In this document: positions 1 through 64,000 of the stretch, in pieces
Position numbering within the stretch: the first letter of the stretch is position 1
How the letters are laid out: the number at the start of each line of letters is the position of its first letter
NCBI GenBank assembly: GCA_947568835.1
Contig: CANOQG010000002.1
Location: forward strand, 496,001-560,000
Direction: 5' to 3'
DNA: 64,000 bases
Source: Protonemura montana
Lineage: Eukaryota > Arthropoda > Insecta > Plecoptera > Nemouridae
The notes under the pieces: model-generated
The model's input: the letters and a program-made list of their open reading frames with translations, nothing else
Databases searched by the model: none
What the model was told of the DNA's origin: nothing
Translations under genes and position numbers: made by a program

Positions 1-711
1 AGACACCAACAATATTTTTGATACTTTACTTTAATAATAATAAAACACTAAAAATTACCGTGAAAAAGACGTAGCGGGATGTAAACCTGAATTTTGAACC
101 AATATAACCCAATTTTACACGTTTTTCCTTCAGTTCTGGAGATTTCGAAAATAATTTGACATTGACGTTGACTTTGACGTTGACTTTGACGTTTAATTTG
201 GCCTAAAGATTCACTGCTGAAAAGATACATTCACGATTTCGTACACCTTGCGGTGGTGACAAAAAAGCAAACAATTGAACAAAGCTGTCAGTTTATTAGC
301 GAAATTAATTCTTTTTCACGTAAAACGATCGCAATTGAATATGTTTTCGCTCAATTACATCAACAACTTTAATACGAATGCATGAAAATGCGCCGTGGAG
401 CTCCAGGCTAGAAAAACTTGAGTATTAAAAGAATTATCAAATCGAGTTGCATCGCCTGGCTCTGAGATATCTTGCCGTCATATTTAGCAACTTTTCACCA
501 TGAAAACGATTTTAAATCGCTGTGAAAATGTCGCCTGCCAATGTAAAAGTTAATTCTGAAAAATTCTAGCCCATTTTCGTACCTTTAGAGTCTCATTTCG
601 CAATTTCCATAACCAGTAGAGCGGCCGGTTACATCCCAGCCACCCATCCACCCATATACCCACAAACTAAAAAGTTGAACATCGCAATTTAAAGCTTTTA
701 TATAAGGTTAA
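1..711 (-). mobile_element. Helitron E0, 5' terminal block only (partial)
   Basis: This is the 5' end of a Helitron whose body lies beyond the left edge of the window. Read on the minus strand it begins TTAACCTTATATAAAAGC at 711 and continues through the block shared by every element here (GGCCGGTTACATCCCAGCC region, poly-A-rich stretches). At about 155-200 it has a short GACGTTGACTTT-type 12-bp repeat. No gene is seen. The boundary at 711/712 is inferred from the ends of nested copy C. Confidence 0.8.
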
Positions 712-933
712 CTAGCAGTACCCGCTGCCTAACGGCACCTAACGATTTTGAGGGAGTGGGCATTTTGGTTTAAACGTGTCTCGAGTTTTCTTTGATGCCC
801 TATCCAAAGCCTCCTAAAAGGACCACAGCCATGCAATATCATACAATACCATAGAATACCATTGAACACCATTGAATACTATAGAATACCATAGAATACC
901 AAAGAATACCATAGAATAACATAGAAAACCAAA

Positions 934-1228
934 CACCTCATTTTAAGGGTAGAAATGATCACTACTATAAGATTATGGTGAAAGCATTTGGAAGGAGGTT
1001 AAAGAACAGAAATTCATTGGTGGATAAAGGCATTGCTGAGTGGAACGGGTTGCCTGAGAAAGTTTTTGAAAACAGGCCACCAGTTAAATTATTTAGGAAG
1101 AGAGTGTTAGAATTAAGTTAGAATATAGGTTATTATTAAGTAAATGTGTTAATATAAGTCAATGTGCCACCGAATATGTACTAATTATTCTAAGCATAAA
1201 TAAAGTTTTCATTCATTCATTCATTCAA
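934..1228 (+). mobile_element. 5'-truncated non-LTR retrotransposon (LINE) 3' end
   Basis: Unique sequence inside the decamer array. It holds the last codons of a LINE reverse transcriptase ORF, a short 3' UTR, an AATAAA signal (1199-1204) and a terminal (ATTC)n run at about 1210-1227. That layout is a severely 5'-truncated LINE insertion. A target-site duplication cannot be called because both flanks are microsatellite. It is the only element in the window on the plus strand. A CR1/L2/Jockey-type LINE is likely, but the clade is not resolved. Confidence 0.75.
936..1121 (+). pseudogene. LINE ORF2 C-terminal fragment
   Basis: An open frame of about 60 codons ends at TAG 1119-1121. It contains VDKGIAEWNGLPEKVFENRP, which matches the pattern at the C-terminus of CR1/L2/Jockey-like reverse transcriptases (a WN.LP motif followed by a short basic tail). 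The endonuclease and polymerase domains are missing, so it is a dead 5'-truncated copy. No start codon is claimed. The assignment rests on this C-terminal motif plus the AATAAA and (ATTC)n tail, not on a database search. Confidence 0.65.
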
Positions 1229-4200
1229 TACTAAAGAACACCATAGAAAACCAAACAATAACATAGAATACCAAAGAATACCATACAATACCATACAATA
1301 TCATAAAACTCCATAGAATACCAAAGTATACCATAGAATTCCATAGAATACCATATAATACCAAACAATACCATACAATACCATACAATACCATAGAATA
1401 CCAAAGACTACCAAACAATACCATACAATACCATATAATACCATAGAATACCAAACAATACCATAGAATACCATACAATAAAATACAATACCATACAATA
1501 CCATTGAATACCAAAAAATACCATAGAATACCAAACAATACCAAAGAATACCAAAGAATACAATATAACTCCATAGAATAACATAGTATAACATAGTGTA
1601 CCATAGAACACCATAGAATACCAAACAATACCATACAATACCATAAAATACCATAGAATACCATACAATATCATAGAATACCATAGAAAACCATAGAATA
1701 CCATAGAATACCATAGGATACCATAGAATGCCATAGAATACCAAAGAATAAAATACAATACCATACAATACCATACAATACCATATAATACCAAACAATA
1801 CCAATCAATACCATAGAATACCATAGAATACCATACAAAACCATACAATACCATAGAATACCATAGAATACCATAAAATACCATAGTATACCATAGAATA
1901 CCATTGAATAAAATACAATACCATACAATACCATAGAATACCATAGAATACCAAAAATACCATACAATACCATAGAATACCATACAATACCATACAATAC
2001 CATACAATACCATAGAATACCAAAGAACACCATAGAATACCAAACAATACCATAGAATACCATTGAATACATAAGAACTCCATAGAATTACATAGTATAC
2101 TATAGTATACCATAGAACACCATAGAATACCATACAGTACCATTCAATACGATAGAATTCCATAGAATACCAAACAATACCATACAATACTATAGAATAC
2201 CATAGAATACCATAGAATACCATAGAATAGAATACAATATCATAGAATACCAAAGAACCCCATATTATATCATACAATACCATAGAACTCCAAAGCATAC
2301 CATAGAATACCATAGTATACCATAGAACACCTTAGAATACAATATAATATCATAGAATACCATAGAACCCCATAGAATACCATAGAATACCAAAGAATAC
2401 CATAAAATGCCATAGAATACCATAGAATATCATAGAATACTATAGAATATCATAGAATACCAAAGAATACAATACAACTTCATAGAATACCATAGAATAC
2501 CAGAGAATGCCATAGACTTCCATAGTATATTATAGAATAGCATAGAACTCCATAGGATACCATAGAATACCATAGAATACTATAGAATACAATAGAAAAC
2601 CATAGAATACCGTAGAAGACTATAGAATACCAAACAATATCATAGAATACCATATAACTCTATAAAATACCATGGAATACCAAAGAATACCAAAGAATAC
2701 CAAAGAATACCATAGAATACCATAGAATACCATAGAATACCATAGAACACCATAGAATACCATAGAACACCATGGAACACCATAGAATACCATTGAATAC
2801 CATGGAAAAACCATAGAATACTATAGCATACCATAGAATACCATAGAATACCGAAGAACACCATGGAACACCATAGAATACCATAGTATATCATAAAAAC
2901 ACCATAGAACACAATAGAATACCATAAAACACCATAGAACACCATAGAACACCAAAGAATACCATTAACTCCATATTATACCATAGAACTCCGTAGAATA
3001 TTATAAAATACCATAGAATACCATTGAATACAATAGAATACCATAGAAGACCATATTATATTATATAATACAAAAGAATACCATAGAATACCATAGAATA
3101 CCGTAGAAGACCATATAATTCCATACAATATCATAGATTACCATAAAACTCCATTGAATACCTTTAAATACCATAGAATACCATAGAATACCATAGAATA
3201 CCAAAGAATACCATAGATTACCATAGAACACCATAGAACACCATAGAACACACTAGAACACCATAGAAAACCATAGAATACCAAAGAATACATTAGAATA
3301 CCATACAATACCATACAAAACCATACAATACCATAGAAATTCATAGAATATTATAGAATACCATAGAATACCATAGAATACCATAGAATACCATAGAACA
3401 CCATAGAACACCATAGAACACCATAGAACACAATAGAATACCATAGAAAACCAAAGAATACCATAGAATACTGTCGAATACTAAAGAATACCATACATTT
3501 TCATTCAATACCATACAATATCAAACAATAATATTAAATACCATCCAAAAACATCCAATACCAAAGAATACCATACATAACAATAAAATACCATACAATA
3601 CCATGCAGTATAATACAATCATATACAATTAGATACAATGTCGAGATCAATCAAGTGACTCTTTTGTATCTTGCTAGCCGAAAACCAACAATATTTTTGA
3701 TACTTTACTATACTTAAACACTTTTAAATCATCGTGAAAAAGACGTAGCGGCATGTAAAACTGTATTTGAACAATAGAAGCCAATTTCGCACGTTTTCCG
3801 TTCAGTTTTGGAGATTTTGAAATTGAATTTGACATTGACGTTGACTTTGACGTTTAAATTTGACGTTTGAATTTCCTGAATGCACTGCCGAAAAGATACA
3901 TTCACGATTTCGTACACCTTGCCGTGGTGTCAAAAAAGCAAACAATTGATCAAAGCTGTCAGTTTATTAGCAAAATAAATTCTTTTTTCACGTTAAACGA
4001 TCGCAATTGAATGTGTTTTTGCTCAATTACATCAACAACTTTATTACAAATGCATGAAAAATAACCGTGGAGCTCAAGGCTAGAAAAACTTGAGTATTAA
4101 AAAAGTTATAAAATCGAGCTGCATCGCCTGGCTCTGAGATATCTTGCCGTCATATTTAGCAACTTTTCACCATGAAAACGATTTTTAATCGCTGTGAAAA

Positions 4201-4391
4201 TGTCGCACGCCAATGTAAAAGTTAATTCTGAAAAATTCTAGCCCATTTCCGTACGTTTTTAGTCGAATTGCGCAATTTCTATAAACAGTAGAGCGGCCGG
4301 TTACATCCCAGCCACCCACCCAGCCAGCCAGCCAGCCACCCACAAACTAAAAAGTTGAACATCGCAATTTAAGGCTTTTATATAAGGTTAA

Positions 4392-7300
4392 CTAGCAGTA
4401 CCCGATGCCTAACGGCACCTTACGATTTTGAGGGAGTGGGCATTTTGGTTTAAACGTGTCTCGAGTTTTCTTTGATGCCCTATCTAAAGCCTCTTAAAAG
4501 GACCACAGCCATGCAATACCATGCAATACCATAGAATATCATAAAATACCATAAAAAACCATTCAAAACCAAAGAAACCCTAAGAAAACTATAAAATTCC
4601 ATTCAATACAATACAATACCATAAAATACCATAGAATACCAAACAAACCCGTTAAATACTAAACAATATCATACAATACCAAAGAGTACCTAAAATACCA
4701 TACAATACCATACAATACCATACAATACCATAGAAAACCTAAGAATGGCAAACTATATCATCGAATACAATTCAATTCCTAACAACACCATAAAGTACCT
4801 TATAATACCATTGTAATCCATAGAAACTCATAAAATACCAGAGGATACCAAACAATACCATAAAATAATATAGAAACCCATGGAACCCATGGAATACCAT
4901 ACCATTCCATACAACATCATAGACTACCAAATAATACAATCGAACACCTCCAAATACCATAGAGAACCATATTATTTCAGAGAAACCCTCAAAATTTTAT
5001 AGAATACCATCCAAAAACATTTAATACCATACACTTCCAAACAAAACCAAACAATACCATAAAATACCAAAGCATATCAAAGAATACCATAGAATACCAA
5101 AGAATACCATAGAATACCATACACTACCATAGAATACCATACAATATCAAAGAATACCATACTATATCATATAATACTATAGAACTCCATAGAATACCAT
5201 AGGACAACATAGAATACCATAGAATACCATAGAATACCATATAATATCATAGAACACCATAGAACTCCATAGAATACCATAGAATACCATAAAATACCAT
5301 AGAATACCATCGAATACCATACAATACCATAGAATACCATAGAATACCATAGAACACCAAAGAACACCATGGAACACCATAGAATACCATAGTATACCAA
5401 AGAATACCATAGAACACAATAGAATACCATAAAACACCATAGAACACCATAGAACACCATAGAATACCATTAACTCCATAAAATACCATAGAATTCCGTA
5501 GAATATTATAAATTACCATAGAATACCATTGAATACCATAGAATACCATAGAATACCATATAATATAATATAATACAAAATAATACCATAGAATACCATA
5601 GAATACCGTAGAAGACCATAGAATACCATACAATATCATAGAATACCATATAACTCCATATAATACCATTAAATACCATATAATACCATATAATACCATA
5701 AAATACCATACAGTTCCATACAATACCATACAATATCATAGAATACCATAGAACTTCATAGAATATTATAGAATAACATAGAATACCATAGAATACCATA
5801 GAATACCATAGAACACTATAGAACACAATAGAATACCATAAAACACCATAGAACACCATAGAACACCATAGAATACCATTAACTCCATATAATATTAAAG
5901 AACTCCATTGAATACCATAGAACACCATAGAATACCATAGAATATCATAGAATACCAAAGAACTCTATAGAATACCATAGTATATAATAGAATACTATAG
6001 AACTCCATAGAATACCAAAGAATACCATAGAATACCATAGAATACCATAGAATACCATAGAACTCCATAGAATACCATAGAATACCATAGAATACCATAG
6101 AATACCATAAAATACCAAAGAATACCATAGAATACCATACAATATCATAGAATACCATAGAACTCCATAGAATACCATAGAATACCATAAAATACCATAG
6201 AATACCATAGAATACCATAACATACCATAGAATACCATAGAATACCATAGAACACCAAAGAAAACCATAGAATACAATAGAATACCATAGAATACCAAAG
6301 CACACCAAAGAACACCATAAAACACCATAGAATACCATAGAATACCATAAAACACCATAGAACACCATAGAACACCATAGAATACTATTCACTCCATATA
6401 ATACCATAGAACTCAGTAGAATATTATAATATACCATAGAATACCATTGAATACCATAGAATACCATATAACTCTAAAGAATACCATAGAATACCATTAA
6501 ATACCATACCATACCATAAAATACCATACAATACCATAGAATATCATAGAATACCATAGCACTTCATAGAATACCATATAATATCATAGAATACCTTCGA
6601 ACTCCATAGAATACCATAGAATACCATAAAATACCATAGAATACCATAGAATACCATAAAATATCATAGAATACCATAGAATACCATAGAACACCAAAGA
6701 GTACTATAGAACACAATAGAATACCATAGAATACCATAGCACACCCAAGAACACCATAGAACACCATAGAATACCATAGTATACCATAGAATATCATAAC
6801 ATACCAGGGCACTCCATAGAATACCATAGAATACGATAGAATACCATAGAATACCATACAATACCATAGAACACCATAGAATACCAAACAATACCATAGA
6901 ATACCATAGAACTCCATACAATACCATACAATATCATATCATACAAAAGATATCGATAGAATACCATAGAATACCAAACAATACCATAGAATACCATAGC
7001 ACTCTATAGAATACCATAGAATACCATAGCACCCCATAGAATACCATAGAATACCATTGAATACCATAGAATACCATAGAACTCAAAAGAATACCATAGA
7101 TTACCATAAAACTCCATACAATACCATACAATACCATAGAACACCATTGAATACCATAGAATACCATAGAATACAATAGAATACATAGAATACCAAAGAA
7201 TACCATAGAACACCATAGAATATCATATAACTCCATAGAATATCATAGAACTCCATAGAATACCATAGAACTCCATAGAACTCCATTGAATACCATAGAA

Positions 7301-8736
7301 TACCATAGAATACCTTAGAATATCAATGTATACCATAGAACACCATAGAATACCATAGAATAACATAGAATGCCATACAATATCATACAATAACACCTTG
7401 TACCATAGACTTCCAAAGAACACCATAAAGTGCTGTACAATATTATACAATTCCATAGAAAACCATATGAAACTAAGATTGCGTATTTGGATTAGATTTG
7501 ATAAAACTGCAATCTGTCATTAATGACGTTTTGAATTTAAATACCTGTTGAATGATCACGGCATTCTCGAAAATAAAATAAAAATCCACGGCGTCCTGAT
7601 TCGATGAAAGATATCTGTCAAATGTTTATCTTTGATCTGTCAATGTCACTCTAAATCTAGTTTTGGCTAAATTATCAATAAAAAACTAATTAAGTGTGTT
7701 TTGTTTGTTTAAAAACCCTATTTAATGTCTTAAAGACCTGCAAAGAAAGTTAGGATTGTTATTGATTTACATAATTGTCACAAATATCATTGATGGCTTG
7801 GAATCAACTGTGTGATCTTGTCTAGGCAGGGGATGAAGAAAAATCGTCGTATTTTCACGACATTTCTCGTCATTCGTATACTATTTACAATAAATATCTT
7901 TAAATATGTTTACAAAAGATTCCAATAGTTGTGTTAATAGATTGTTTAACTTTACAAACCTTTTTGACGTGTAAATAATCTCCACAAGAATGCCACGGGC
8001 TTGTCAAGTGGCTATTTTTCATCTTGCTTGCCAAGACACTAACAATATTTTTGATACTTTACTATAATAATGCACTTTGAAATTACCGTGAAAAAGACGT
8101 AGCGGGATGTAAACCTGAATTATGAACCAATGTAAGCCAATTTCACACGTTTTTCCTTCAGTTCTGGAGATTTCGAAAATAATTTGACATTGACGTTGAC
8201 TTTGACGTTTGAATTTGACGTTTAATTTGGCCTGATAATCCACTGCTGAGAAGATACATTCACGATTTCGTACACCTTGCCGAGGTGACAAAATAGCAAA
8301 CATTTGAACAAAGCTGTCAGTTTATTAGCAAAATTAATTCTTTTTCACGTGAAACGATCGCAATTGAATATGTTTTCGCTCACTTACATCAACAACTTTA
8401 ATACGAATGCATGAAAATGCGCCGTGGAGCTCCAGGCTAGAAAAACTTGAGTATTAAAATAATTATCAAATCGAGCTGCATCGCCTGGCTCTGAGATATC
8501 TTGCCGTCATATTTAGCAACTTTTCACCATGAAAACGATTTTAAATCGCTGTGAAAATGTCGCCTGCCAATGTAAAAGTTAATTCTGAAAAATTCTAGCC
8601 CATTTCCATACGTTTTGAGTCTAATTTCACAATTTCCATAACCAGTAGAGCGGCCGGTTACATCCCAGAGACCCACCTACCTACCCACAAACTAAAAAGT
8701 TGAACATCGCGATTTAAAGCTTTTATATAAGGTTAA
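4392..8736 (-). mobile_element. Helitron E2, non-autonomous
   Basis: The 3' end is at 4392 (CTAG and hairpin), followed by a 3' segment almost identical to that of E1, the decamer array (about 4511-7470), and a long 5' region (7471-8736). The 5' region includes the roughly 550-bp segment 7475-8030, also present in E3, E5 and E6. This segment is a diverged relative of the sequence next to the ATGCT array in autonomous copies (for example 21840-22200). No gene is seen. Confidence 0.82.
4511..7470. repeat. Decamer microsatellite in E2
   Basis: The same ATACCATAGA-type array as in E1, more degenerate at its left end (4511-5050). It contains a longer marker block at about 5880-6010 (including the rare run AGTATATAATAGAATAC) that recurs in E4 near 42740 and 43165, so larger segments are shared between elements. 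Open frames in it are array artefacts. Confidence 0.95.
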
Positions 8737-8764
8737 CTAGCAGTACCCGATGCCTAACGGCACC
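8737..8764 (-). other. Helitron 3' terminus with hairpin (copy A)
   Basis: On the minus strand the sequence reads GGTGCC-GTTA-GGCATC, then GGGTACTG, then CTAG. That is a 6-bp stem with one G-T pair, a 4-nt loop, an 8-nt spacer and a CTRR-type end. This is the canonical Helitron termination signal. The same structure starts each element at 712, 4392, 23025, 36590, 41287, 44626, 47339, 48115 and 62880. Confidence 0.88.
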
Positions 8765-9719
8765 TGTTGTTCTTATCCCTAGTGGTTTTATTTTAGTATA
8801 TTAGTATTGTCTTTGAACTTGGATTAACAATTACAAATAGCTCACTACTGTTTTTCTAGTACCCTATGCCCATAGGGCATATGCCGATAGGATAGATCAT
8901 GACAAAAATATATGGGCCTAGGCCAAAATCTAGTCCCTAAGCCCTGGGACCGAACTGAGACTTTACACTTAATGTAGCCTCTACGCATACATTTAAGAAA
9001 CTTTTATGGGACAACAAAATAAAGTACTGAAAAAATGGCAAGAAAACAAAGTATTGTGCCCTTACGACTTGATATACCATACTATGCCTGATTTCCGCCA
9101 GTACTTTCAACGATGATGGCTAACCAGCAGCATTGCTTATAAGGACACAACCATTTGGTGTGCTTTTTGGACAGAAAGGAATCATTACAAATATTTTTGG
9201 TTTGGTTTCAGTGACGAAGGTTTTTTTTTGAAGATTAAACACACAAAAAATGTACCTATTCATTACTGTAATTTTTATTTGCCAATATTATGATCATTTT
9301 TACAAATATAAGAAATATTCACATGTTTACGACGATTTGCGTTGAAAACTTTGACCATTTGAAAGCAACAGTCAATGCAGACCAGCCATGTCGCAGTATC
9401 GCCACTGTTCATTCGTAATTGAAAGTAATCTCCGCAATGGTGCCATGAAGAAGTTCCTTCTCCACGATTGGCAGGGGGAGGGGCTGTCTAAAACAAAATA
9501 AAAATAGACGGCAAGAGAGAGGCACCATTCTTGGAGAAATGAAAAGTTTCTAAATGTATTCAAGCTGTTAAGTGAGAGAATTTTAAAAATATTTGTTATG
9601 CCGGGGCCCCCATCCCGCCCCGGCAGCATGGCGATCGTCGCACACTACATCGCCTCTGCCTTACACTATCAAAGATTGTGCAGCCCGTTGCAAGCAACAG
9701 GAATCTCTGATGTGCGGAC
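8765..9719. other. Helitron 3' non-coding region (copy A)
   Basis: Non-repetitive sequence between the 3' hairpin and the 131-bp repeats. It contains a palindrome around 8868-8885 (CCCATAGGGCAT). A module at about 8858-9070 resembles, in permuted order, 17130-17400 of the same element. The interval 9290-9480 corresponds to the small candidate exon described for copy B. No confident gene. Confidence 0.6.
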
Positions 9720-9981
9720 ATGCAAGGATTCATGCAAGGATCAACTGTGTCGGATAGGTAGGATGCATTGATCAGTTTTTAGACTGATGCAATGCTATCA
9801 TGCTTGGTGGTTAGTTGGTTTGGCATTCCAAGATGGAATCAAGAAGAGAGATGCAAGGATTCATGCAAGGATCAACTGTGTCGGATAGGTAGGATGCATT
9901 GTTCAGCTTTTAGACTGATGCAATGCTATCATGCTTGGTGGTTAGTTGGTTTGACATTCCAAGATAGAATCAAGAAGAGAG
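9720..9981. repeat. 131-bp tandem repeat, 2 units (copy A)
   Basis: Two units beginning ATGCAAGGATTCATGCAAGG at 9720 and 9851, spaced exactly 131 bp. Copy C has five units at the homologous place, B two (one split by a retrotransposon) and D one before the window ends. Frames of 75-76 codons inside the units are a by-product of the repeat. Confidence 0.93.
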
Positions 9982-10040
9982 AAACATGCAGTAAAAAGAC
10001 CGACACGAAAGTAAGATTGTGACCTTAAAAAAATTGCAAA

Positions 10041-10420
10041 CATGCAGATAGAAAACAGCAGCTTGCATAACTATTAACTACTTACTTACCAACTACTACT
10101 ACTTACTACTTAGTAACTACTTTACTAAATCTATGATATTTTTTTTTTGTTTTTTTGTTTTTTTGAACATGCATGACATGCAGATAGAAAACAGCAGGTT
10201 GCATAACTATTAACTACTTGCTTACCAACTACTACTACTTACTACTTAGTAACTACTTTACTAAATCTACGATATGTTTTTTTATTTTATTTTTTTTTTT
10301 GGAACATGCATGACATGCAGATAGAAAACAGCAGGCTGCATTTCTAATACTATTAGTTAGAAGTAACTACTTTACTAAATGTATGTACAATATACTTTTT
10401 TTTTTGTTTTTCAACAGCAT
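10041..10420. repeat. About 136-bp tandem repeat with poly-T tracts (copy A)
   Basis: Three units starting CATGCAGATAGAAAACAGCA at 10041, 10177 and 10314. Each holds a TACTACTTACTACTTAGTAA-type stretch and a long T-rich run. Copy C has six units, B three. Confidence 0.9.
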
Positions 10421-10744
10421 TCAAATTTGAAGTACCTTTACCAAATCTACGATAGGGCTATCAATTAATTTACATGCATAATTGTCTAGCTCTGGGAGGA
10501 GCAGTTCCGTTAGAGTGTCCACATGCGAGCGCAATGGTCGTGAAGTTAAAGGGCTATGCGGCGTCCGGTGCTTTATACCTGCAGCAGAAAAGCGTGTCAG
10601 CATGGTGAAATATATGGGAATTGGGTTGCTACCTGCCGTGCTAGTCACGGTTCCTGGTCTGCCCTACCTAGCCTTACTGAATTTAAATTTATCTAGGAAA
10701 TGTTACCGCTATTGCAAATGTAAGGGATAGTACAATGATAGGAT
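10421..10744. other. Conserved 3' flank of the Rep/helicase gene
   Basis: About 320 bp of non-repetitive sequence just downstream of the stop codon, almost unchanged in A, B (29161-29449) and C (50576-50862). It is probably the 3' UTR. Short frames exist on both strands (82 codons plus, 75 minus), but neither resembles a known protein and conservation is equal on both strands, so no gene is called. Confidence 0.5.
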
Positions 10745-16219: not shown

Positions 16220-16526
16220 CTGTGTAAAGAAAGCGAGGCTTTAGTAATGCCTAGCGTAGCCGAGCTGACGCGGGAATGGCTGAGCACGAACCGACCGCCA
16301 TGTTCAATAAAAATGACCTCACGCAAATATCATGCCAGGCTAAATGTATGCTTTAATATGCACAACAATCACTTCAGTTTCTTTACAAAGAAATATGCTA
16401 ATTTGCTTCGAATGCGAGCTTGGACGCCATGTTGAACACACTTCTAATTGTTGGAACGGTGGGCATGGGAGGATTGGGGAGGGGGATGAGAATCGCGTCG
16501 AGCGATTGCATCATGTTACGTAAAAA

Positions 16527-18740: not shown

Positions 18741-18770
18741 TGAATAGAGCTCTAGATATAAAACCTGTAA

Positions 18771-47338: not shown

Positions 47339-47495
47339 CTAGCAGTACCCGCTGCCTAACGGCTGCAGTTGAAGTCGAGGGTGTGGGCATTTTGGTTTAA
47401 ACTGTCCACATTATAAACAATCCATAAAACATCGACAACTTTCTCGAGTTTTCTTTGATGCCCTATCCTAATTCTCTAAAAAGGACCACAGCTAA

Positions 47496-48114: not shown

Positions 48115-48142
48115 CTAGCAGTACCCGATGCCTAACGGCACC
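48115..48142 (-). other. Helitron 3' terminus with hairpin (copy C)
   Basis: CTAG 48115-48118, 8-nt spacer, then the GATGCC-TAAC-GGCACC hairpin (plus strand, 48127-48142). The host T required after CTAG is present on the minus strand. Confidence 0.9.
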
Positions 48143-49752: not shown

Positions 49753-49811
49753 AAACATGCAGTAAAAAGACCGACACGAAAGTAAGATTGTGACCTTAAA
49801 AAAATTGCAAA

Positions 49812-50309
49812 CATGCAGATAGAAAACAGCAGGTTGCATAACTATTAACTACTTACTTATACCGACTACTACTACTTACTACTAAGTAACTACTTTACTA
49901 AATCTATGGTATTTTTTTTTGTTTTTTTGTTTTTTTGAACATGCATGACATGCAGATGGAAAACAGCAGGTTGCATAACTATTAACTACTTACTAACCAA
50001 CTACTACTTATTACTACTTAGTAACTACTTTACTAAATCTATGGTATTTTTTTTTGTTTTTTTGTTTTTTTGAACATGCATGACATGCAGATAGAAAACA
50101 GCAGGTTGCATAACTATAAACTACTTACTTACCAACTACTACTTATTACTACTTAGTAACTACTTTACTAAATCTATGGTATTTTTTTTTGTTTTTTTGT
50201 TTTTTTGAACATGCATGACATGCAGATAGAAAACAGCAGGTTGCATAACTATAAACTACTTACTTACCAACTACTACTACTTACTACTTAGTAACTACTT
50301 TACTAAATC

Positions 50310-50341
<32 letters not shown>

Positions 50342-50575
50342 GAACATGCATGACATGCAGATGGAAAACAGCAGGTTGCATAACTATTAACTACTTACTT
50401 ACCAACTACTACTACTTACTACTTAGTAACTACTTTACTAAATCTACGATATGTTTTTTTATTTATTATTTTTTTTTTTTGGTCATGCATGACATGCAAA
50501 TGGAAAACAGCAGGCTGCATTTCTCATACTATTAGTTAGAAGTAACTACTTTACTAATTGTATGTACAATATAAT
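49812..50575. repeat. About 136-bp tandem repeat with poly-T tracts, 6 units (copy C)
   Basis: Six units beginning CATGCAGAT or CATGCAAAT, each with TACTACT-rich sequence and a T-run. One T-run (about 50318-50341) is uninterrupted. Twice the copy number seen in A and B. Confidence 0.92.
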
Positions 50576-50862
50576 CTATCAATTAATTTACATGCATAAT
50601 TGTCTAGCTCTGGGAGGAGCAGTTCCGTTAGAGTGTCCACATGCGAGCGCAATGGTCGTGAAGTTAAAGGGCTATGCGGCGTCCGGTGCTTTATACCTGC
50701 AGCAGAAAAGCGTGTCAGCATGGTGAAATATATAAGAATTGGGTTGCTACCTGCCGTGCTAGTCACGGTTCCTGGTCTGCCCTACCTAGCCTTACTGAAT
50801 TTAAATTTATCTAGGAAATGTTACCGCTATTGCAAATGTAAGGGATAGAACAATGATAGGAT

Positions 50863-53800: not shown

Positions 53801-56340
53801 TGGAACTCGATCACGTGGAAGTGAGCCATGGGAACGCCCAGCACGTGCCTCTTGGTGAGATCAGACATGAGCTCCTTGAGTTTAAGTTGGAATACTCGCG
53901 CGGTGAGATCGGGTCGGTCTTCTGCCCTTTCGTACGCCGCTAGGCTCGTCTGAATCTCAGGCCACTTCGGATTACACGTCATAGTAAGGAAAAGATCGGG
54001 TTTTCCAAACTTGGTGACGATACTCATAGCGTCTTGATATAGCTGCTGGCAATGCCTGGGGCTTCCGATGGAACTGGAAGGCAGAATCACCATCTTCCCG
54101 ACATTGCAGCCCTGCCGCTCAGCACGGTTCGCCAAGTGGTCCATGAGCCCACTGTAGAGTTCGGCGCGCAGCGTTTTCTGGTTCCTGATGACGAACTCAA
54201 GGCGATTGCCCTCAACCTTGATATAGGCGTCTACCATAAACTGCTGCGTCAGCTTGCCGGCGTGCAGCACTGGATGGAAGGCGCCGACACGCTCGTGGAG
54301 TCGATGGCTATAAAACTCCATTAGAGTGACGACGCTGTGCTTAGATTGCCTGGTGTGCGGCATACCTCGTTGCCAGCCGGGTTCTCCACGTGGGAACAAC
54401 AGCACGTAGCTGAGCGGATCCGTGTTGGGCGACAGGACAGACAGCTGCTCAATAAATCCGCCACGAGTATGGATACGAATATCACGTCCTAGAGGAGGCA
54501 TGCCACCGTCAACGCTCTGATAAACAACGGCCACCTCGTGGGCCGTAGGATTTTCGTACAGCCGCCGTCGGTCATCCACGAAACGCAGTTCGGCCATGAC
54601 CTCGGGTCGCCCCTCGGCAGCTGCACGGATCCTGTCGTCGGCCTCCACCTGACCTAACGTTTTAAGCCCTTGGGCAAAAGGATTTATTTCGCGAACCAGC
54701 GCGTCCAGCTCATGAAGCAGGTTGGGTAGCAGATTAGCATTCTGGCGCCTGTCCATTCGATGCGTCTTCGCTTGTTCCGCGTCAAGAAAGTACAGGTGCG
54801 AATAGAGGGGATTCTGCACCGCCTGCCCCATATGGCCGATCCTATGCTGGATGTTGCCATGGACACGAAAACAGTATGTGCCACGGCCCTGGGGGATGTC
54901 CGTCTTAACTCCGACTGAAGCGAAGGAGAGCGAACTGTTGTACGACCGGATGTTTTTGCGGAAGTTCTTAGACTCGCAATGATCTCCGGTCAGCAACGCA
55001 TGCATTAAATCGGGATACGCGAGGAGAGGCTCGAGGATTACGTTGCCCGAGTGACAACAGAGTTTGTAAATTTTGTCAGAAGGACGCTCTCCTGCGAAGT
55101 ACAGAGCGCCGCACACCCTGCATACTTCGTCCATTCTGCCGCAGTGAAAAAGGGCGACGTCAGCGACGTCTTGCCGTGCAGCCTCCAAGTGGAAAGGATG
55201 AAGGTTCACTGGAGCAAGATCAGGTTCGAACTGATCGTCTGCCACGTCAATAGCCTCGACCGCGACTCGCTGGCTTTGCTCTAGTTCAGCCTCTTGGGCG
55301 CGTTGAGACGCCTCCTCCTCAGCGCGCTGAGAGACTTCCACTTCGAATGCCGCGAGCTTATCCCTGGTCTCTATATTTCGACGCTGCTGAGATCGCTCCC
55401 GCGCGGCGACTAATCGGCTCTCGCGCGCCTCTGTAGTCTCATGCTGCCTTTCACACTGCGTTTGAACTGCCTTCTGGCTTAATCGCTGAAGGCGCTGTTC
55501 CTCAGCTTCGTCGCTCAAGCGGCGACGCTTGAACTCTGCCATAAGGGCTAGTCGCTGAAGGCGCTGTTCGTCAGCTTCGTTACTCAAGCGGCGACGCTTT
55601 GACTCTGCCATAAGGGCTAGTCGCTGAAGGCGCTGTTCGTCAGCTTCGTCACTCAAGCGGCAACGCTTTGACTCTGCCTTAAGGGCTAGTCGCTGAAGGC
55701 GCTGTTCTTCCGTACATTTTGCCAAGCGGAGGCGCTCAGACTCGGCCTTTTTAGCAAGAAGCTGTAGGCGTCGTCCCTCAGAAGCTTCGTCTAGTCGTCG
55801 ACGCTTCGACTCGGCAACCTGAGCCAGACGCAGAAGACGCTGGGCCTCATCCTCAGCCTTTCTGCGCTGGCGAGCATTTCTAGCTTTTTCCGCTAGTCGG
55901 GCACTCCGTTCGTTTGCTGCTACTTGCACGTTCTTATCCTCTTGGAGCTGGCCAACTGAATTTTCCAGGATCTGAGTCTGGTCAAGGGATGGGAGTATAG
56001 ACGGCAAATTGTCGGAAAAGGAATGCATATAGCGGCTTGTAGAGGGTTGATCATAAAAAGCTGGAAGAGAAGCGGGGGCGGCCTGTTCTAATAATGAATC
56101 ATGCTTTAAGACACTCACCGGGGCTTCTCTAAGAACAGCGGAAAGAAAAGGACGCTGCTCGTCGAGCGTCGACGTCGACGGGCTTGCAGTCGCCTGATGG
56201 TCGGCGTGCTCGGCCGTCTCTCTCGTCCTCGCTCTCTCGTCAGCAGCAGCCCTTTTCCTCGCCGCCGCGCTCTCCGCTCTTGCCGTTGCACCTTTCCCGC
56301 CCTTCCGAGACGTCAGATTTACACGCTTCTTGGGTGGCAT
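50863..56340 (-). CDS. Helitron Rep/helicase transposase (copy C)
   Basis: An intact 1825-aa protein, nearly identical to copy A and with the same motifs: coiled-coil repeats (about 140-320), CRVCG and CCHSG, HUH in GLPHAHIL, Y2 in KYVYKGHD, Walker A GPGGSGKT, Walker B ILDEGPMAP, NKAQGQS and YVALSRA. Differences seen by eye include VGINLEKP for VGIHLEKP near 1717, CNVGKMVILPSSSIGS for CNFGKMVILPSSFIGS near 760, and one extra C-terminal serine from an added GGA triplet in a purine run over the stop. That so few changes separate A and C, with no stops, suggests recent transposition or very recent duplication. Confidence 0.94.
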   Translation of the reverse strand: MPPKKRVNLTSRKGGKGATARAESAAARKRAAADERARTRETAEHADHQATASPSTSTLDEQRPFLSAVLREAPVSVLKHDSLLEQAAPASLPAFYDQPSTSRYMHSFSDNLPSILPSLDQTQILENSVGQLQEDKNVQVAANERSARLAEKARNARQRRKAEDEAQRLLRLAQVAESKRRRLDEASEGRRLQLLAKKAESERLRLAKCTEEQRLQRLALKAESKRCRLSDEADEQRLQRLALMAESKRRRLSNEADEQRLQRLALMAEFKRRRLSDEAEEQRLQRLSQKAVQTQCERQHETTEARESRLVAARERSQQRRNIETRDKLAAFEVEVSQRAEEEASQRAQEAELEQSQRVAVEAIDVADDQFEPDLAPVNLHPFHLEAARQDVADVALFHCGRMDEVCRVCGALYFAGERPSDKIYKLCCHSGNVILEPLLAYPDLMHALLTGDHCESKNFRKNIRSYNSSLSFASVGVKTDIPQGRGTYCFRVHGNIQHRIGHMGQAVQNPLYSHLYFLDAEQAKTHRMDRRQNANLLPNLLHELDALVREINPFAQGLKTLGQVEADDRIRAAAEGRPEVMAELRFVDDRRRLYENPTAHEVAVVYQSVDGGMPPLGRDIRIHTRGGFIEQLSVLSPNTDPLSYVLLFPRGEPGWQRGMPHTRQSKHSVVTLMEFYSHRLHERVGAFHPVLHAGKLTQQFMVDAYIKVEGNRLEFVIRNQKTLRAELYSGLMDHLANRAERQGCNVGKMVILPSSSIGSPRHCQQLYQDAMSIVTKFGKPDLFLTMTCNPKWPEIQTSLAAYERAEDRPDLTARVFQLKLKELMSDLTKRHVLGVPMAHFHVIEFQKRGLPHAHILVILRDEDKIRTPEEVDALICAELPDPVTEERLHKVIVSSMIHGPCGARNMSSVCMEDGKCKKKFPKSFTDVTVVNEGGFTVYRRRESGQTHTISGRVVDNRDVVPYNKYLSSKFDCHLNIEHCGSAKTVKYLCKYVYKGHDCARVQLRVSVPAEGDHEPRPAHGAQQELVWDEVSQFIDSRYVSPQEAAWRIFGFEMHEKSHTIIRLAIHLEGDHMVTFRPGDEEAAAERGRAALTTLTAWFALNSSNPAARQYKYIDIPYHFRFEGKAWKPRKRGAGSIISRMYSVTPRQIERYHLRLLLLHVAGATSFEDVRTFQGRVYATFKEAAIARNLLMDDDEWQKCLQEAVAIKMPNELRQLFAIICAFCQPLDPLSLWERFKGDFCEDFAREHDPIEAEQLALNSIQSVLALHRLTNAEIGLPAPRVPVIVAVDEQFDQTAEREEAEENVVKLNGRQRVAFDAVMAAIDDPNAEQRCFYLDGPGGSGKTFLYNTLISTLRARGERAVAVAWTGIAATLLKGGRTCHSRFRLPVPIVENSTSGVKPNSAEGASLRAAKVIILDEGPMAPLLALNVIERTLRDVTNDERPFGGKVIVIGGDFRQCLPVVRNGNRTTIVEQCIKRGALWSLFRTLELRANMRANPGEVEFVEWLLRVGNGEILNDCHLPDDTIALPVQCVVDCVIDAVFGTSISAAEMAVMQDHAILCPKNVESLNINDNVLERLEGDVFEYCSADTVDVSEGEDGDVLATDYPVEYLNSLTPSGMPPHKLRLKVHAIVMLMRNVDVRAGLCNGTRLSVVALHEHVIDCRIIGGRCAGRRTFLCRVNLTPSDIGMPFTMTRRQFPIRLAFAMTINKAQGQSLKRVGINLEKPVFGHGQLYVALSRARSLDSIFVAVAGNEAQGKLIVSSNTTFTKNIVYQEVLEIHAPDHQAADPSSRSGYQEADQQALEQSLSQLAVSDADEEVPMDASSSS

Positions 56341-57551
56341 CTGTGTAAAGAAAGCGAGGCTTTAGTAATGCCTAGCGTAGCCGAGCTGACGCGGGAATGG
56401 CTGAGCACGAACCGACCGCCATGTTCAATAAAAATGACCTCACGCAAATATCATGCCAGGCTAAATGTATGCTTTAATATGCACAACAATCACTTCAGTT
56501 TCTTTACAAAGAAATATGCTAATTTGCTTCGAATGCGAGCTTGGACGCCATGTTGAACACACTTCTAATTGTTGGAACGGTGGGCATGGGAGGATTGGGG
56601 AGGGGGATGAGAATCGCGTCGAGCGATTGCATCATGTTACGTAAAAATGACGTCATGGAAATATCCACAAGACGGGCAAAATGTATGCTTTCCAGTCTTG
56701 ATGATGAACGATAATTTTAATAATTAAGAAGCTAAACGCTATAAAATCACTATAAATAATTGAATCACTTGATGATATCAGTGGTTGACTATTACTGGAT
56801 ATTGTGACATGCAAATTAAATCTGAAATAAGATTACCTTGAATAGCGACGAAATTCTTCCCCACAAGAGTGTTTCGCCGTGTAGGTAATCCGCACTCTCA
56901 TGCTAGACTAACTGCTTTAGCAAATGGCGGTTGGCGAGCTTTGGGAGTGTGACTAATTGCCGAGCGTGGATGCCGATCAAAAAGCGGTAACCAACAACCC
57001 GCTACGTAAAATGACGTCACGCAAATTCAAACTTGAACACCACGCGCGACGATTTAAATTACGTGCCATAAGAAGCTGTCGATGCTACACGCTGTAAATG
57101 AATGAAGCCAGAAGTCAAATTATTGTGGTCAGTGATCATAATAATGTGTCTTAAGAGGTTAACTAATTAATTACGCGTTAAATCACTACTAAATTTATCT
57201 GAAAACTCATTAAAGAAACACAATTGAACACAAAATATGCACCTGTGCCTTTTTAAAGCCTTTTATGGGACCACCACCCAAAGAACTAAGAAAATGAATA
57301 AGAAAATATAGTTTTTGGCCCTTTCGATTTAAATAAGAATTTTGCCTCTTCACCAGTAGCTACCCTATGCTCTGCGGGCATGCCCGATGGCCAGATCATT
57401 ACTCAAATATGGCCCTAGTCCATAACCTAGGTCTTCAGACCTGGGATATATTTCTTTTTAAAATATATCTTTTAATGTACATTCAGAAGGCATTATTAAA
57501 GCCCATTGCCCAAAAGATGTAAAGATACAAACTGCTGATTTAAAATAATCT
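56341..57551. promoter_or_regulatory. Upstream region with two TGACGTCA motifs (copy C)
   Basis: Equivalent of 16220-17429 in A, nearly identical. TGACGTCA at 56648-56655 and 57012-57019. The role as promoter region is inferred. Confidence 0.45.
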
Positions 57552-58862
57552 GGATAGAGCATAGGATCCAGCCAGCTGATCTCAAATAACATGGATAGAG
57601 CATAGGATCCAGCCAGCTGATCTCAAATAACCTGGATAGAGCATAGGATCCAGCCAGCTGATCTCAAATAACCTGGATAGAGCATAGGATCCAGCCAGCT
57701 GATCTCAAATAACATGGATAGAGCATAGGATCCAGCCAGCTGATCTCAAATAACCTGAATAGAACATAGGATCCACCCAGCTGATCTCAAATAACCTGAA
57801 AAGAGCATAGAATCCAGTCAGCTGATCTCAAATAACCTGGATAGAGCATAGGATCCAGCTAGCTGATCTCAAATAACCTGGATAGAGCATAGGATCCAGC
57901 CAGCTGATCTCAAATAACCTGGATAGAGTATAGGATCCAGTCAGCTGATCTCAAATAACCTGGATAGAACATAGGATCCAGCCAGCTGATCTCAAATAAC
58001 CTGGATAGAGCATAGGATCCAGCCAGCTAATCTCAAATAACCTGGATAGAGCATAGGATCCAGCTAGCTGATCTCAAATAACCTGGATAGAGCATAGGAT
58101 CCAGCCAGCTGATCTCAAATAACCTGGATAGAGCATAGGATCCAGCCAGCTGATCTCAAATAACCTGGATAGAGTATAGGATCCAGTCAGCTGATCTCAA
58201 ATAACCTGGATAGAACATAGGATCCAGCCAGCTGATCTCAAATAACCTGGATAGAGCATAGGATCCAGCCAGCTAATCTCAAATAACCTGGATAGAGCAT
58301 AGGATCCAGCTAGCTGATCTCAAATAACCTGGATAGAGCATAGGATCCAGCCAGCTGATCTCAAATAACCTGGATAGAGCATAGGATCCAGCCAGCTAAT
58401 CTCAAATAACCTGGATAGAGCATAGGATCCAGCCAGCTGATCTCAAATAACCTGGATAGAGCATAGGATCCAGCCAGCTAATCTCAAATAACCTGGATAG
58501 ACCATAGGATCCAGCCAGCTGATCTCAAATAACCTGGATAGAGCCTAGGATCCAGCCAGCTGATCTCAAATAACCTGGATAGAGCATAGGATCCAGCCAG
58601 CTGATCTCAAATAACCTGGATAGAGCATAGGATCCAGCCAGCTGATCTCAAATAACCTGGATAGACCATAGGATCCAGCCAGCTGATCTCAAATAACCTG
58701 GATAGAGCCTAGGATCCAGCCAGCTGATCTCAAATAACCTGGATAGAGCATAGGATCCAGCCAGCTGATCTCAAATAACCTGGATAGAGCATAGGATCCA
58801 GCCAGCTGATCTCAAATAACCTGGATAGAGCATAGGATCCAGCCAGCTGATCTCAAATAACA
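57552..58862. repeat. 41-bp minisatellite, about 32 units (copy C)
   Basis: The same unit as in A (GGATAGAGCATAGGATCCAG...). The array shares A's variant order at its left end but contains an internal repeat of a several-unit block (AGAGTATAGGATCCAGTCAG occurs near 57926 and again near 58172). The two arrays have about the same total length but different internal histories. Confidence 0.95.
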
Positions 58863-58962
58863 TGAATAGAGCTCTAGATATAAAACCTGTAAAATCCGTA
58901 TTCCATGCTGAGGTTGCTAGCAATAGAAATTAAACCCACAGGTGATTTGCATTAAAGTCAGA

Positions 58963-59876
58963 TTGCTATGCTTTGTTATTCTATGCTATGCTATGCTATG
59001 CTATGTTATGTTATGCTATGCTTTGCTATGCTATGCTTTGCTTTGCTTTGCTATGCTTTGCTATGCTATGCTATGCTTTGCTTTGCTATGCTATGCTATG
59101 CTATGCTTTGTTATTCTATGCTATGCTATGCTATGCTATGTTATGTTATGCTATGCTTTGCTATGCTTTGCTATGCTATGCTTTGCTATGCTTTGCTATG
59201 CTATGCTATGCTTTGATAAGCTATGCTATGCTATTCTATGCTATGATTTGCTATGCTTTGCTATGCAATGCTTTGCTATGCTTTGCTATGCAATGCTTTG
59301 CTATGCTTTGCTATGCTTTGCTATGCTATGCTATGCTTTGCTATGCTATGCTATGCTATGCTATGCTATGCTATGCTATGCTATGCTATGCTATGCTTTG
59401 CTATGCTTTGCTATGCTTTGATAAGCTATGCTTTGCTATTCTATGCTATGCTTTGCTATGCTTTGCTATGCTTTGCTATGCTATGCTTTGCTATGCTTTG
59501 CTATGCTATGCTTTGCTATGCTTTGCTATGCTATGCTTTGCTATGCTCTGCTATGCTTTGCTATGCTATGCTTTGCTATGCTTTGCTATGCTATGCTTTG
59601 CTATGCTATGCTATGCTATGCTATGTTATGTTATGCTATGCTTTGCTTTTCTATGCTATGCTATGCTATGCTATGCTATGCAATGCTATGCTCTGCTATG
59701 CTATGCTTTGATAAGCTATGCTATGCTTTGCTTTGCTTTGCTATGCTATGCTATGCTATGCTTTGCTATGCTATGCTATGCTATGCTATGCTATGCTTTG
59801 CTATGCTATGCTATGCTTTGCTATGCTATGCTATGCTTTGCTATGCTATGCTATGCTTTGCTGTGCTATGCTATGC
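58963..59876. repeat. ATGCT/TTGCT pentamer array (copy C, about 0.9 kb)
   Basis: The same array and flanks as in A but about 2 kb shorter; it lacks A's 875-bp internal duplication. The right end (TTTGCTGTGCTATGCTATGCC) is identical to A. Confidence 0.95.
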
Positions 59877-61197
59877 CAAATGTTCAGGACAGCCTTTAAA
59901 ATTGCCAAAGAAATTGTGAATGCATTGTTTTTCGCATTCAAAACAATTAATAGGTACCTTGATATAGGTACCAATTACGTATTTGCGCGGTAAAAAAAAC
60001 ACAAATTTAAATAAAAATGTTCTCGCTAAACACTTTGCGTTTGAAAACCTGTTGCAAATTCACGGCAGTCTTGAAAATTATTATTTTTTTCACGGCTTCT
60101 TACGTCGATGGAAAAGAATTTTCACCTGTTTTTGCGATCTGTCACTCAAAATCAAGATTTGTCGGAATAATCTCTAAAAAACATGTTTAGTATAGTTTGG
60201 TTGTTAAGAAATCCATATTCCATGCTTAGGTTGCTAGCAATGGAAAGTTAACCCACAGGTGATTTGCATAAAAGTCGGAAATATCATTTCCGTTTGAAAT
60301 TGGTGGTGGAATCTTGTCTAGGTTGGGGTTGAATAGTATGCGTCGTATTTGAACAATTTCGGCTTAAATCGGCAAGATGTTTATACCTTTATGAAACACA
60401 ATTAAACTAAAGAAATTCAATTGAACACAAAATGTGCAATAAAAATACAATTTTTACGCCTGTAAAGAGTCAAACTTTTTCCTTACCTACCTGTTTCATA
60501 TGAAGTGGCATTTGGAATCCTGTCAAATCGCCGTATGACATCAACTCACCTTAAAAATGTCGCGTTTCATATCATGCTTCGAAATCATGTACAAATTATA
60601 ACCATTTCCTGTCGTTTTTGACCGATTTTCGCCAAAAACAAAGGGGTTTTAGTAGATAGTTTGACATTTCAACCCATTTTGACATTTAATTTGGCCTGAT
60701 AATCCACTGCTGAGAAGATACATTCACGATTTCGTACACCTTGCTGTGGTGTCAAAATAGCAAACAATTGATTAAAGCTGTCAGTGTATTAGCAAAATTA
60801 ATTCTTTTTCACGTAAAACGATCGCAATTGAATGTGTTTTCGCTCAATTACATCAACAACTTTATTACGAATGCATGAAAAATCACCGCAAAGCTCGAGG
60901 CTAGAAAAACTTGAGTATTAAAATAGTTATAAAATCGAGCTGCATCGCCTGGCTCTGAGATATCTTGCCGTCATATTTAGCAACTTTTCACCATGAAAAC
61001 GATTTTTAATCGCTGTGAAAATGTCGCACGCCAATGTAAAAGTTAATTCTGAAAAATTCTAGCCCATTTTCGTACGTTTTGAGTCGAATTTCGCAATTTC
61101 TATAAACAGTAGAGCGGCCGGTCACATCCCAGCCACCTACCTACCCACAAACTAAAAAGTTGAACATCACAATTTTAAAGCTTTTATATAAGGTTAA
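59877..61197 (-). other. Helitron 5' terminal region (copy C)
   Basis: Nearly identical to 21704-23024 of A. It ends ...TATATAAGGTTAA at 61197, where decamer microsatellite of E6 resumes. No gene. Confidence 0.8.
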
Positions 61198-61610
61198 TAA
61201 TACCATATAACACCATAGAATACCAAAGAATATTCATAGAATACCATATAATACCATAGAATACCATAGAATACCATAGAATACCACAGAACTCCATAGA
61301 ATACCATATAATACCATAGAATATTATAGAATACCATAGAATACCATAGAATACCTTACAATACCATAAAATATCATAGAATACCAAACAATATCATAGA
61401 ATACCATAGAATACCATAGAATACCATAGAATACCATAGAATACCATAGAACACCATAGAATATTCATAGAATACCATATAATACCATACAATATCATAG
61501 AATATCATAGAACTCTATAGATTACCATAGAATACCAGAGAATAACATAGACTACCATATAACACCATAAAGTACTATACAATACCATATAATTCCATAG
61601 AAAACTATAT
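61198..61610. repeat. Decamer microsatellite in E6, right part
   Basis: Continuation of the array interrupted by Helitron C, in the same 10-bp register, up to the unique inner segment starting near 61615. Confidence 0.93.
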
Positions 61611-62879
61611 TAAACTTAGATTGCGTATTTGGATTAGATTTGATAAAACTGCACTCTGTCATTAATGACGTTTTGAATTTAAATACCTGTTGAATGATCA
61701 CGGCATCCTCGAAAATAAAATTAATATCCACGGCGTCCTGATTCGATGAAAGATATCTGTCAAATGTTTATCTTTGATCTGTCAATGTCACTTTTAATCT
61801 ATTTTTGGCAAAATTATCAATAAAAAACAAATTAAGTGTGTTTTGTTTGTTTAAAAACCTATCTTAGGTCTTTAAGACCTGCAAAGAAAGTTAGGATTGC
61901 TATTGATTTACATAATTGTCACAAATATCATTGATGGCTTGGAATCAACTGTGTGATCTTGTCTAGGCTGGGGATAGTGAAAAATCGTCGTATTTTAAGA
62001 AATTTCTCGTCTTTCGTATACTATTTACAATAAATATCTTTAAATATGTTTACAAAAGATTCCAATAGTTGTGTTAATAGATTGTTTAACTTTCCAAACC
62101 TTTTTGACGTGTAAATAACCTCCACAAGAATGCCACGGGCTTGTCAAGTGACTATTTTTCATCTTGCTAGCCAAGACACCAACAATATTTTTGATACTTT
62201 ACTATACTATAATAATAATAATACACTTTAAATTACCGTGAAAAAGACGTAGCGGGATGTAAACCTGAATTATGAACTAATATACGCCAATTTCACACGT
62301 TTGTCCTTCAGTTCTGGAGATTTCGAAAATCATTTGACATTGACGTTGACTTTGACGTTGACTTTGACGTTTGAATAGCCTAGGTTCACTGCCGAAAAGA
62401 TACATTCACGATTTCGTACACCTTGCCGTGGTGTCAAAAAAGCAAACAATTGATCAAAGATGTCAGTTCATTAGCAAAATTAATTCTTTTTCACGTAAAA
62501 CGATCGAAATTAAATGTGTTTTCGCTCAATTACATCAACAACTTTAATACGAATGCATGAAAAATAACCGTGGAGCTCCAGGCTAGAAAAACTTGAGTAT
62601 TAAAATAGTTATAAAATCGAGCTGCATCGCCTGGCTCTGAGATATCTTGCCGTCATATTTAGCAATTTTTCACCATGAAAACGATTTTTAATCGCTGTGA
62701 AAATGTCGCACGCCAATGTAAAAGTTAATTCTGAAAAATTCTAGCCCATTTTCGTACGTTTTGAGTCGAATTTCGCAATTTCTATAAACAGTAGAGCGGC
62801 CGGTCACATCCCAGCCACCTACCTACCCACAAACTAAAAAGTTGAACATCACAATTTTAAAGCTTTTATATAAGGTTAA

Positions 62880-64000
62880 CTAGCAGTACCCGATGCCTAA
62901 CGGCACCTGTTGTTCTTATCCCTAGTGGTTTTATTTTAGTATTAGTATTGTCTTTGAACTTTGATCAACAATGACAAATAGCTCACTACTATTTTTCTAG
63001 TACCCTATGCCCATAGGGCATATGCCGATAGGATAAGTCATGACAAAAATATATGGGCCTAGGCCAAAATCTAGTCCCTAAGCCCTGGGACCGAACTGAG
63101 ACTTTACACTTAATGTAGCCTCTACGTATACATTTAAGAAACTTTTATGGGACAACAAAATAAAGTACTGAGAAAATGTCAAGAAAACAAAGTATTATGC
63201 CCTTACGACTTGATATACCATACTATACCTGATTTCCGCCAGTACCTTCAACGTTGATGCCTACCAGGAGCATAACTTTTGGGGACACAACCATTTGGTG
63301 TGCTTTTTGGACGGAAAGGAATCATTACAAATATTTCTGGTTTGGTTTCAGTGACGAAGGTTTTTTTTTTGAAGATTAAACAAAAAAAAATGTACCTATT
63401 AATTATTGTAATTTTTATTTGCCAATATTATGATCATTCTTACAAATATAAGAAATATTCACATGGTTACGACGATTTGCGTTGAAAACTTTGACCATTT
63501 GAAAGCAACAGTCAATGCAGACCTGCCATGTCGCAGTAGCGCCACTGTTCATTCGTAATTGGAAGTAATCTCCGCAATGGTGCCATGAAGAAGTTCCTTC
63601 TCTACGATTGGCAGGGGGAGGGGGTCTAAAACAAAATAAAAAAGACGGCAAGAGAGAGGCACCATTCTTGGAGAAATAAAAAGTTTCTAAATGTATTCAA
63701 GCTGTTAATTGAGAGAATTTTAAAAATAATTGTTATGCCGGGGCCCCCATCCCGCCCCGGCAGCATGGCGATCGTCACACACTACATCGCCTCTGCCTTA
63801 CACTATCAAAGATTGTGCAGCCCGTTGCAAGCAACAGGAATCTCTGATGTGCGGACATGCAAGGATTCATGCAAGGATCAACTGTGTCGGATAGGTGGGA
63901 TGCATTGTTCAGTTTTTAGACTGATGCAATGCTATCATGCTTGGTGGTTAGTTGGTTTGACATTCCAAGATGGAATCAAGAAAAGAGAAACATGCAGTAA
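62880..64000 (-). mobile_element. Helitron D, autonomous type, 3' part only (runs off window)
   Basis: CTAG at 62880 with hairpin, then the 3' non-coding region typical of autonomous copies (closest to B), the small candidate frame (63415-63651) and one 131-bp repeat unit (63857-63987). The Rep/helicase gene would start about 1 kb or more beyond the right edge. Confidence 0.85.
63857..63987. repeat. 131-bp repeat unit (copy D)
   Basis: A single unit starting ATGCAAGGATTCATGCAAGG, followed at once by AAACATGCAGTAA, the sequence that ends the array in A-C. D therefore has one unit here. Confidence 0.88.

Follow-up and report, generated by a model that had tools for sequence, protein, structure and literature searches.

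Gap-free tandem arrays of end-intact Helitrons in the stonefly Protonemura montana and their probable growth at 5' borders

Tandem Helitrons have been reported from bat, Drosophila, rice and maize, and for a group of three tandem copies in Metarhizium acridum insertion at a 5' end and rolling-circle replication were both named as possible origins (PMC5148889). Plant centromeric Helitron arrays are described as being made up of copies that are truncated, and in many of these arrays several 5' ends accompany a single 3' end (Xiong et al. 2016, as described in PMC12628747). Helitron circles have a 3'-to-5' joint (PMC5876387). The Helraiser element, which begins with TC, finishes with CTAG and carries a palindrome 11 nt from the end, is inserted predominantly at AT and can read through its 3' terminus (PMC4778049). 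The origin of such arrays, i.e. serial insertion, rolling-circle multimers or recombination, has been posed as a set of alternatives (PMC5148889, PMC12628747). Here we report on a stretch of 64,000 nucleotides ("the window"; GCA_947568835.1, contig CANOQG010000002.1, positions 496,001 to 560,000 of the forward strand) from the stonefly Protonemura montana (Plecoptera, Nemouridae), which is part of a gap-free tandem of autonomous and non-autonomous Helitrons that appears to reach well beyond it. Sister sites with shorter and longer arrays are present in this one genome, so that the question of array origin becomes directly testable, and we consider it probable that new units insert at the A/T step of a resident 5' border. 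A literature search combining Plecoptera, stonefly and Helitron returned no paper, and in what was seen from searches on tandem Helitrons, mostly not at full-text depth, no comparable paired sites were listed.

Junctions, element ends and the extent of the arrays

The first-pass annotation of the window, made from the letters alone, had proposed ten Helitrons, autonomous and non-autonomous mixed, that share one orientation and are joined directly, 5' end to 3' end, at nine identical junctions. The string GGTTAA/CTAGCAG is exact at all nine (plus strand; the first at 706-718, the others starting at 4386, 8731, 23019, 36584, 41281, 44620, 47333 and 62874), with no additional base at any of them, and the element strand is the minus strand, i.e. 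CTAG (3' end) lies to the left and TTAACC (5' end, element strand) to the right. Allowing up to two mismatches, the window has 12 matches to the junction string (nine exact; single orientation), against 1.28 on average and at most 4 in 100 dinucleotide shuffles. Junctions, orientation and the mixture of types (RepHel frames in some units, satellite bodies in others) stand as annotated. Ten units can indeed be counted, but only eight are complete, each with both ends; two are cut by the window edges, and one holds a nested autonomous copy. The array had thus been recognized correctly, but no mechanism had been given for it, and three features had been missed: the nested copy, an inserted Gypsy-type element and a 5' end that departs from the canonical TC in being TTAACC.

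The element boundary was set by the nested copy, whose empty site, CCATA^TAATACC, keeps an exact 10-bp satellite period; the element is therefore TTAACC...CTAG, inserted between A and T. A boundary of TAACC...CTAGT with a T^T target was rejected, since the empty site of the nested copy would then disrupt the 10-bp period. We searched the genome (258.5 Mb, 34 contigs) for free ends. Exact 5' ends followed by T number 279, and among 100 listed 95 are host-like beyond the end and five are altered junction sequence; for the 672 5' ends followed by another base, 98 among 100 listed run into CTAG (backwards control, 9). For 3' ends with a base other than A at position -2 (233 in total), 96 among 100 listed have A at -1 (control, 2). 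Most free ends thus follow the A^T rule, with no target duplication, and TTAA and CTAG are indeed the ends of the free copies, as had been anticipated for single copies. Odd junctions, in which TTAA or a ATAAGGTTAA tail is doubled, were seen at C4:679095, C4:685873 and C1:282861 and are perhaps marks of imprecise strand transfer.

These elements belong to the Helitron superfamily. Three copies in the window have an uninterrupted RepHel frame of 1824-1825 aa (Pfam PF14214, E 1e-60; PF05970, 2e-56), and all three contain GLPHAHILV, which we take to be the HUH motif, and the Walker A sequence GPGGSGKT; YxxKY, presumably the two-tyrosine motif, is at residue 988 in the one frame inspected for it (29450-34924). 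Stop-free frames of at least 1400 aa are present in 12 of the 34 complete units in C7:1-200000 and the window. The RepHel protein is predicted to be active. A Pfam scan of the three RepHel frames in the window detected no apurinic-type endonuclease domain, which is a feature of Helentron/Helitron2 transposases. The 3' CTRR hallmark is present as CTAG at all nine junctions and in the nested copy, and together with the RepHel frame, the HUH and two-tyrosine motifs and the A^T insertion it identifies the family as Helitrons; we call it canonical-like because the 5' end is TTAACC instead of TC. A putative hairpin, GGTGCC-GTTA-GGCATC, ends 12 nt before the 3' terminus, and in two units 39 of 200 and 22 of 200 shuffles folded equally well.

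Genome-wide, the junction 13-mer occurs 667 times, compared with twice for its backwards control, and 370 of the 504 exact 3' ends of one type directly adjoin GGTTAA; these are the counts that the first-pass annotation had suggested as a check of its reading. The window is on the 925-kb contig C7, in which we read C7:1-200000 and the window (264 kb), the block layout elsewhere being taken from junction positions. Within C7:1-200000 (up to two mismatches) 27 of 28 3' ends are in junctions, in a single orientation, the remaining one being that of a nested copy, and the 5' ends that are free (two of 29) belong to this nested copy and to the outer array end at 8789. Autonomous-type junctions number 143 in the genome, with positions from 100 listed; among these matches C7 has a minus block at 18-338 kb (20 junctions), a plus block at 370-684 kb (18) and a minus block at 721-920 kb (13), and C8 has at least 32, up to 740 kb. 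The dense arrays seen on C4 are located in the first 0.8 of its 25.9 Mb. The arrays hence continue well past the window, and "satellite-forming", as the system had been called, is a fair description for the part sampled. Array orientation flips between large blocks, at C7 338-371 kb, C7 684-721 kb and C8 274-300 kb. A 3'-end variant, CTAGCAGAACCC, marks units of ~0.92 and ~1.09 kb in short arrays on C1-C4 (e.g. C2:6433991-6441061) and is also found on two long C7 units (44856 and 155795).

Paired sites and proposed growth at 5' borders

Contig C4 carries a duplicated segment with two insertion sites, of which 17.6 kb was read in copy B, transposons included; the host parts compared between copies A and B are 98.97-100% identical. 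At site 1, copy B has a single element of 2431 bp and copy A, between the same flanks, an array of ~63 kb, for which both ends were read and eight exact junctions are listed between them. The single element corresponds to the 3'-most unit of the array (98.85% identity), and the outermost 5' end of the array and the single copy adjoin the same host base, with a 5' flank that is 100% identical over 1003 bp.

At site 2, copy A has six units (A1-A6; 919, 919, 923, 1088, 914 and 1089 bp) and copy B five (B1-B5; 919, 920, 919, 920 and 923 bp). A1 and B1 are 99.9% identical, A2 is 100% identical to B2 and B4, and A3 equals B5 over 923/923 bp. The extra units A4-A6 sit exactly between the 5' terminus of A3 and a host flank that is identical over 502 bp. 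They are 79-96% identical to every other unit at the site, with at most 92.8% to A1-A3 and B1-B5, and A6 and B5 have just 18 terminal bases in common; a deletion or a circle crossover would therefore need to fall inside those 18. B3 is a mosaic, A3/B5-like at 16/16 informative sites to column 768 and A1/B1-like at 8/8 from column 864, and by this pattern is the exact product of one unequal exchange. Two further duplicated sites (L034/L035 and L036/L037) do not differ in structure between their copies and are thus uninformative.

Our preferred explanation is an end-intact, self-stacking Helitron family in which new units probably insert at the A/T step of the resident 5' border. A copy (TTAACC...putative hairpin...CTAG, element strand) would insert between a host A and a host T. 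Because the element begins with T, the step from host A to element T at its 5' border would again be an A^T target, which the 3' border (G/T) is not. Insertion there would yield ...CTAG/TTAACC... with no base gained or lost and would recreate the target at what is then the outermost 5' border, and since the target is regenerated only at this border an array would lengthen in the 5' direction alone, its founder remaining 3'-most. The RepHel protein would be supplied by the autonomous copies; satellite-bearing copies, and short ones, that share their ends would enter the same arrays. Each addition could be a single unit or a multi-unit block, and unequal crossing-over would afterwards copy and mix units. 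Insertion at 5' borders would explain the gap-free junctions, the one orientation per array, the intact ends and the mixed unit types. We infer that stacking would be negligible if A^T sites were chosen at random, so that either 5' borders must be preferred as targets or whole blocks must have been inserted repeatedly. That the transposition complex favours the 5' border of its own family, perhaps by way of circular intermediates, and so makes directional, self-extending arrays of hundreds of kb with autonomous copies inside, is a proposition for which we see the case as evenly balanced. If true, array order would be a record of time in which the founder is the 3'-most unit, and transposition, not recombination alone, would build satellite DNA; transposon self-targeting would then make satellite-scale DNA with a predicted polarity and age order.

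Several observations weigh against the preferred explanation. Of nine 3' ends listed within the site 1 array, that at C4:327931 lies outside any exact junction, and 25 of the 31 differences in the stretch compared at this site are concentrated in the final ~500 bp of the unit, which suggests that conversion or an older exchange touched it. Approximately 4-5% of the listed free ends either deviate from the A^T rule or represent altered junction sequence. The change from short to long arrays is the direction that we favour at site 2, and the precise loss of three units is formally possible there. Moreover, A4-A6 may have been added as one block: among the 32 of 1358 candidates that were scored, the order A4-A5-A6 recurs at seven other places with 88-93% identity, and pairs thereof at 96-97%, which speaks against a strict addition of single units and may reflect either mobile multi-unit blocks or a frequent alternation of two common unit types. 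Adjacent units on C7 (26 units) are also slightly more alike than expected by chance (0.914 vs 0.900 for other pairs; permutation p 0.012), and in one pair of C7 neighbours the last 560 bp are identical, so that some local copying occurs.

The recurring unit order and the identical neighbour pair would also fit rolling-circle concatemers, in which replication of a circle or an array passes the 3' end and a ready-made multimer is inserted; the joint of Helitron circles, 3' end to 5' end, is of the same kind as the array junction (PMC5876387). This route is a serious if tentative alternative. However, neighbours often differ in type and are ~91% alike in their shared end, which is near the value for any other pair, and in the window (eight units) neighbours score 0.912 and other pairs 0.920 (permutation p 0.89); that neighbours are hardly more alike than other units argues against arrays made from a single template. 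In the plant arrays for which this route has been invoked the copies are truncated, and many of these arrays combine several 5' ends with a single 3' end, in the parts of the account available (PMC12628747); this pattern was not seen in C7:1-200000, given the 27 of 28 3' ends within junctions. Concatemers of truncated copies were on this ground rejected as the sole source.

An origin of the arrays from a few seeds, through unequal crossing-over or through segmental duplication, is unlikely. Local duplicates such as B2 and B4, both identical to A2, and the mosaic B3 show that unequal crossing-over contributes, but on its own it cannot place three locally unlike units, A4-A6, exactly at a 5' border, nor can it mix unrelated unit types.

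Entry of Helitron circles into resident copies via homologous recombination, and not transposition, would likewise give exact CTAG/TTAACC junctions and would make special targeting unnecessary. It predicts, however, that the resident 5' tail ends up on the outermost unit; at site 2 this tail stays with the inner unit (923/923 bp) and the outermost unit shares the last 18 bp only, such that the explanation survives only with a crossover placed there, and at site 1 the inner unit shares a suffix of 52 bp and the outer unit one of 22 bp. We regard this route as quite improbable. An assembly artefact, i.e. unlinked copies chained by the assembler or haplotypes placed in tandem, is hardly credible: repeats are dense in C7 and C8, and the duplicate on C4 might represent a haplotype that was not collapsed, but short arrays of the same build occur in large contigs with free ends entering ordinary-looking sequence, units are interrupted by nested copies and by a retrotransposon with GATT on both sides, and the comparison of A with B is valid even if they are haplotypes.

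Anatomy of the window

All units of the window, with their RepHel frames and the retrotransposon, are on the minus strand. Its left edge cuts a unit for which the 5' part is present (1-711, 5' terminus at 711), with 88.6-93.5% identity to the 5' parts (713-727 bp) of units E2, E3, E6, E7, E8 and E9. The first complete unit (712-4391) is non-autonomous, with both termini, a AATACCATAG-type satellite body of ~2160 bp and a longest stop-free frame of 307 aa; its satellite seems, by eye, to be broken at ~950-1225 by a retroposon-like 3' tail with terminal ATTC repeats. Non-autonomous units that likewise have their termini and a body covered by AATACCATAG satellite are found at 4392-8736, 36590-41286, 41287-44625 and 44626-47338, the first of which (both termini present) is 99.5% identical over its full length to a C7 unit ~370 kb off, in a block of opposite orientation. 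Non-autonomous and autonomous copies are alike in their 5'-terminal ~530 bp and, at the 3' end, in the first ~25 bp.

The autonomous unit at 8737-23024 has internal minisatellites (41-bp and TGCTATGCTA) and a RepHel transposase frame at 10745-16219 (1824 aa; Helitron_like_N, E 1.3e-60; PIF1, 1.9e-56; Pif1_2B). A second one, at 23025-36589, is 92.6-98.0% identical to it in the larger aligned pieces outside an insert, and its RepHel frame (29450-34924, 1824 aa) contains these domains and the motifs given above. The insert (24147-28625) is a Gypsy-type long terminal repeat (LTR) retrotransposon with reverse transcriptase, RNase H, integrase and DUF7041 domains, LTRs of ~266 bp that are identical, and GATT on both sides; by its identical LTRs we judge it a recent arrival in the autonomous Helitron. 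The unit at 47339-62879 is non-autonomous-like in its first 776 and last 1681 bp and autonomous-like in the middle, being split by the nested copy (48115-61197), a solo-type insertion in which a domain scan identified a RepHel frame of 1825 aa (50863-56340). At the right edge the 3' part of an autonomous-type unit (62880-64000) has 95.6-96.0% identity with the corresponding region in each of the three autonomous copies.

The 41-bp and TGCTATGCTA minisatellites (17412-21703 and 57534-59876) are present in two of the autonomous copies and not in the third; between these two the 41-bp array has the same length and the TGCTATGCTA array measures 2862 vs 913 bp. Within the RepHel frame a 69-bp repeat (15362-15660, 34067-34365 and 55483-55781) overlaps STPR-type repeats (PF21107), and the length of the stop-free frame differs between copies (1783-1946 aa), seemingly in part at this repeat. 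On C4, a chromosome-size contig, there are long COX1 matches at 5760925-5762262 and 5776811-5777755, the first of which scores the same as the mitochondrial contig C34; these represent either mitochondrial DNA that was recently copied into the nucleus or a misjoin. On C34 itself a COX1 stretch of 446 aa has 100% identity to several entries from Nemouridae, in agreement with a nemourid stonefly as the host.

Comparison with known Helitron systems

The stonefly family resembles Helibat1/Helraiser in its RepHel protein, its CTAG 3' end, its A^T insertion without target duplication and a putative palindrome ~11-12 nt before the end, and circles with joined ends are a feature of Helibat1/Helraiser (PMC4778049, PMC5876387). 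It differs from them in having TTAACC for TC, a short putative stem of 4-6 bp and most of its intact copies in tandem. Internal tandem repeats are shared with the HINE/Helentrons of oyster, where the 2-kb CgiSat48 has Helitron boxes at both ends; unlike the stonefly family the oyster elements are mainly dispersed, the CgiSat48 arrays have at most three repeats, and these arrays are without autonomous copies as described in the parts of the sources available (PMC7492417, PMC8268682).

With the plant centromeric Helitrons, which reach several to several hundred repeats, the family has in common the long tandem arrays, but each end is retained in its units, and autonomous copies occur among them (PMC12628747). 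As in Metarhizium acridum the copies are in tandem, and in contrast to that case, one instance of three copies as far as the account was available, the stonefly has paired sites that differ in array length (PMC5148889). Tandem Helitrons are thus already known, and what we describe here is a large, end-intact variant with duplicated sites at apparently different stages of growth.

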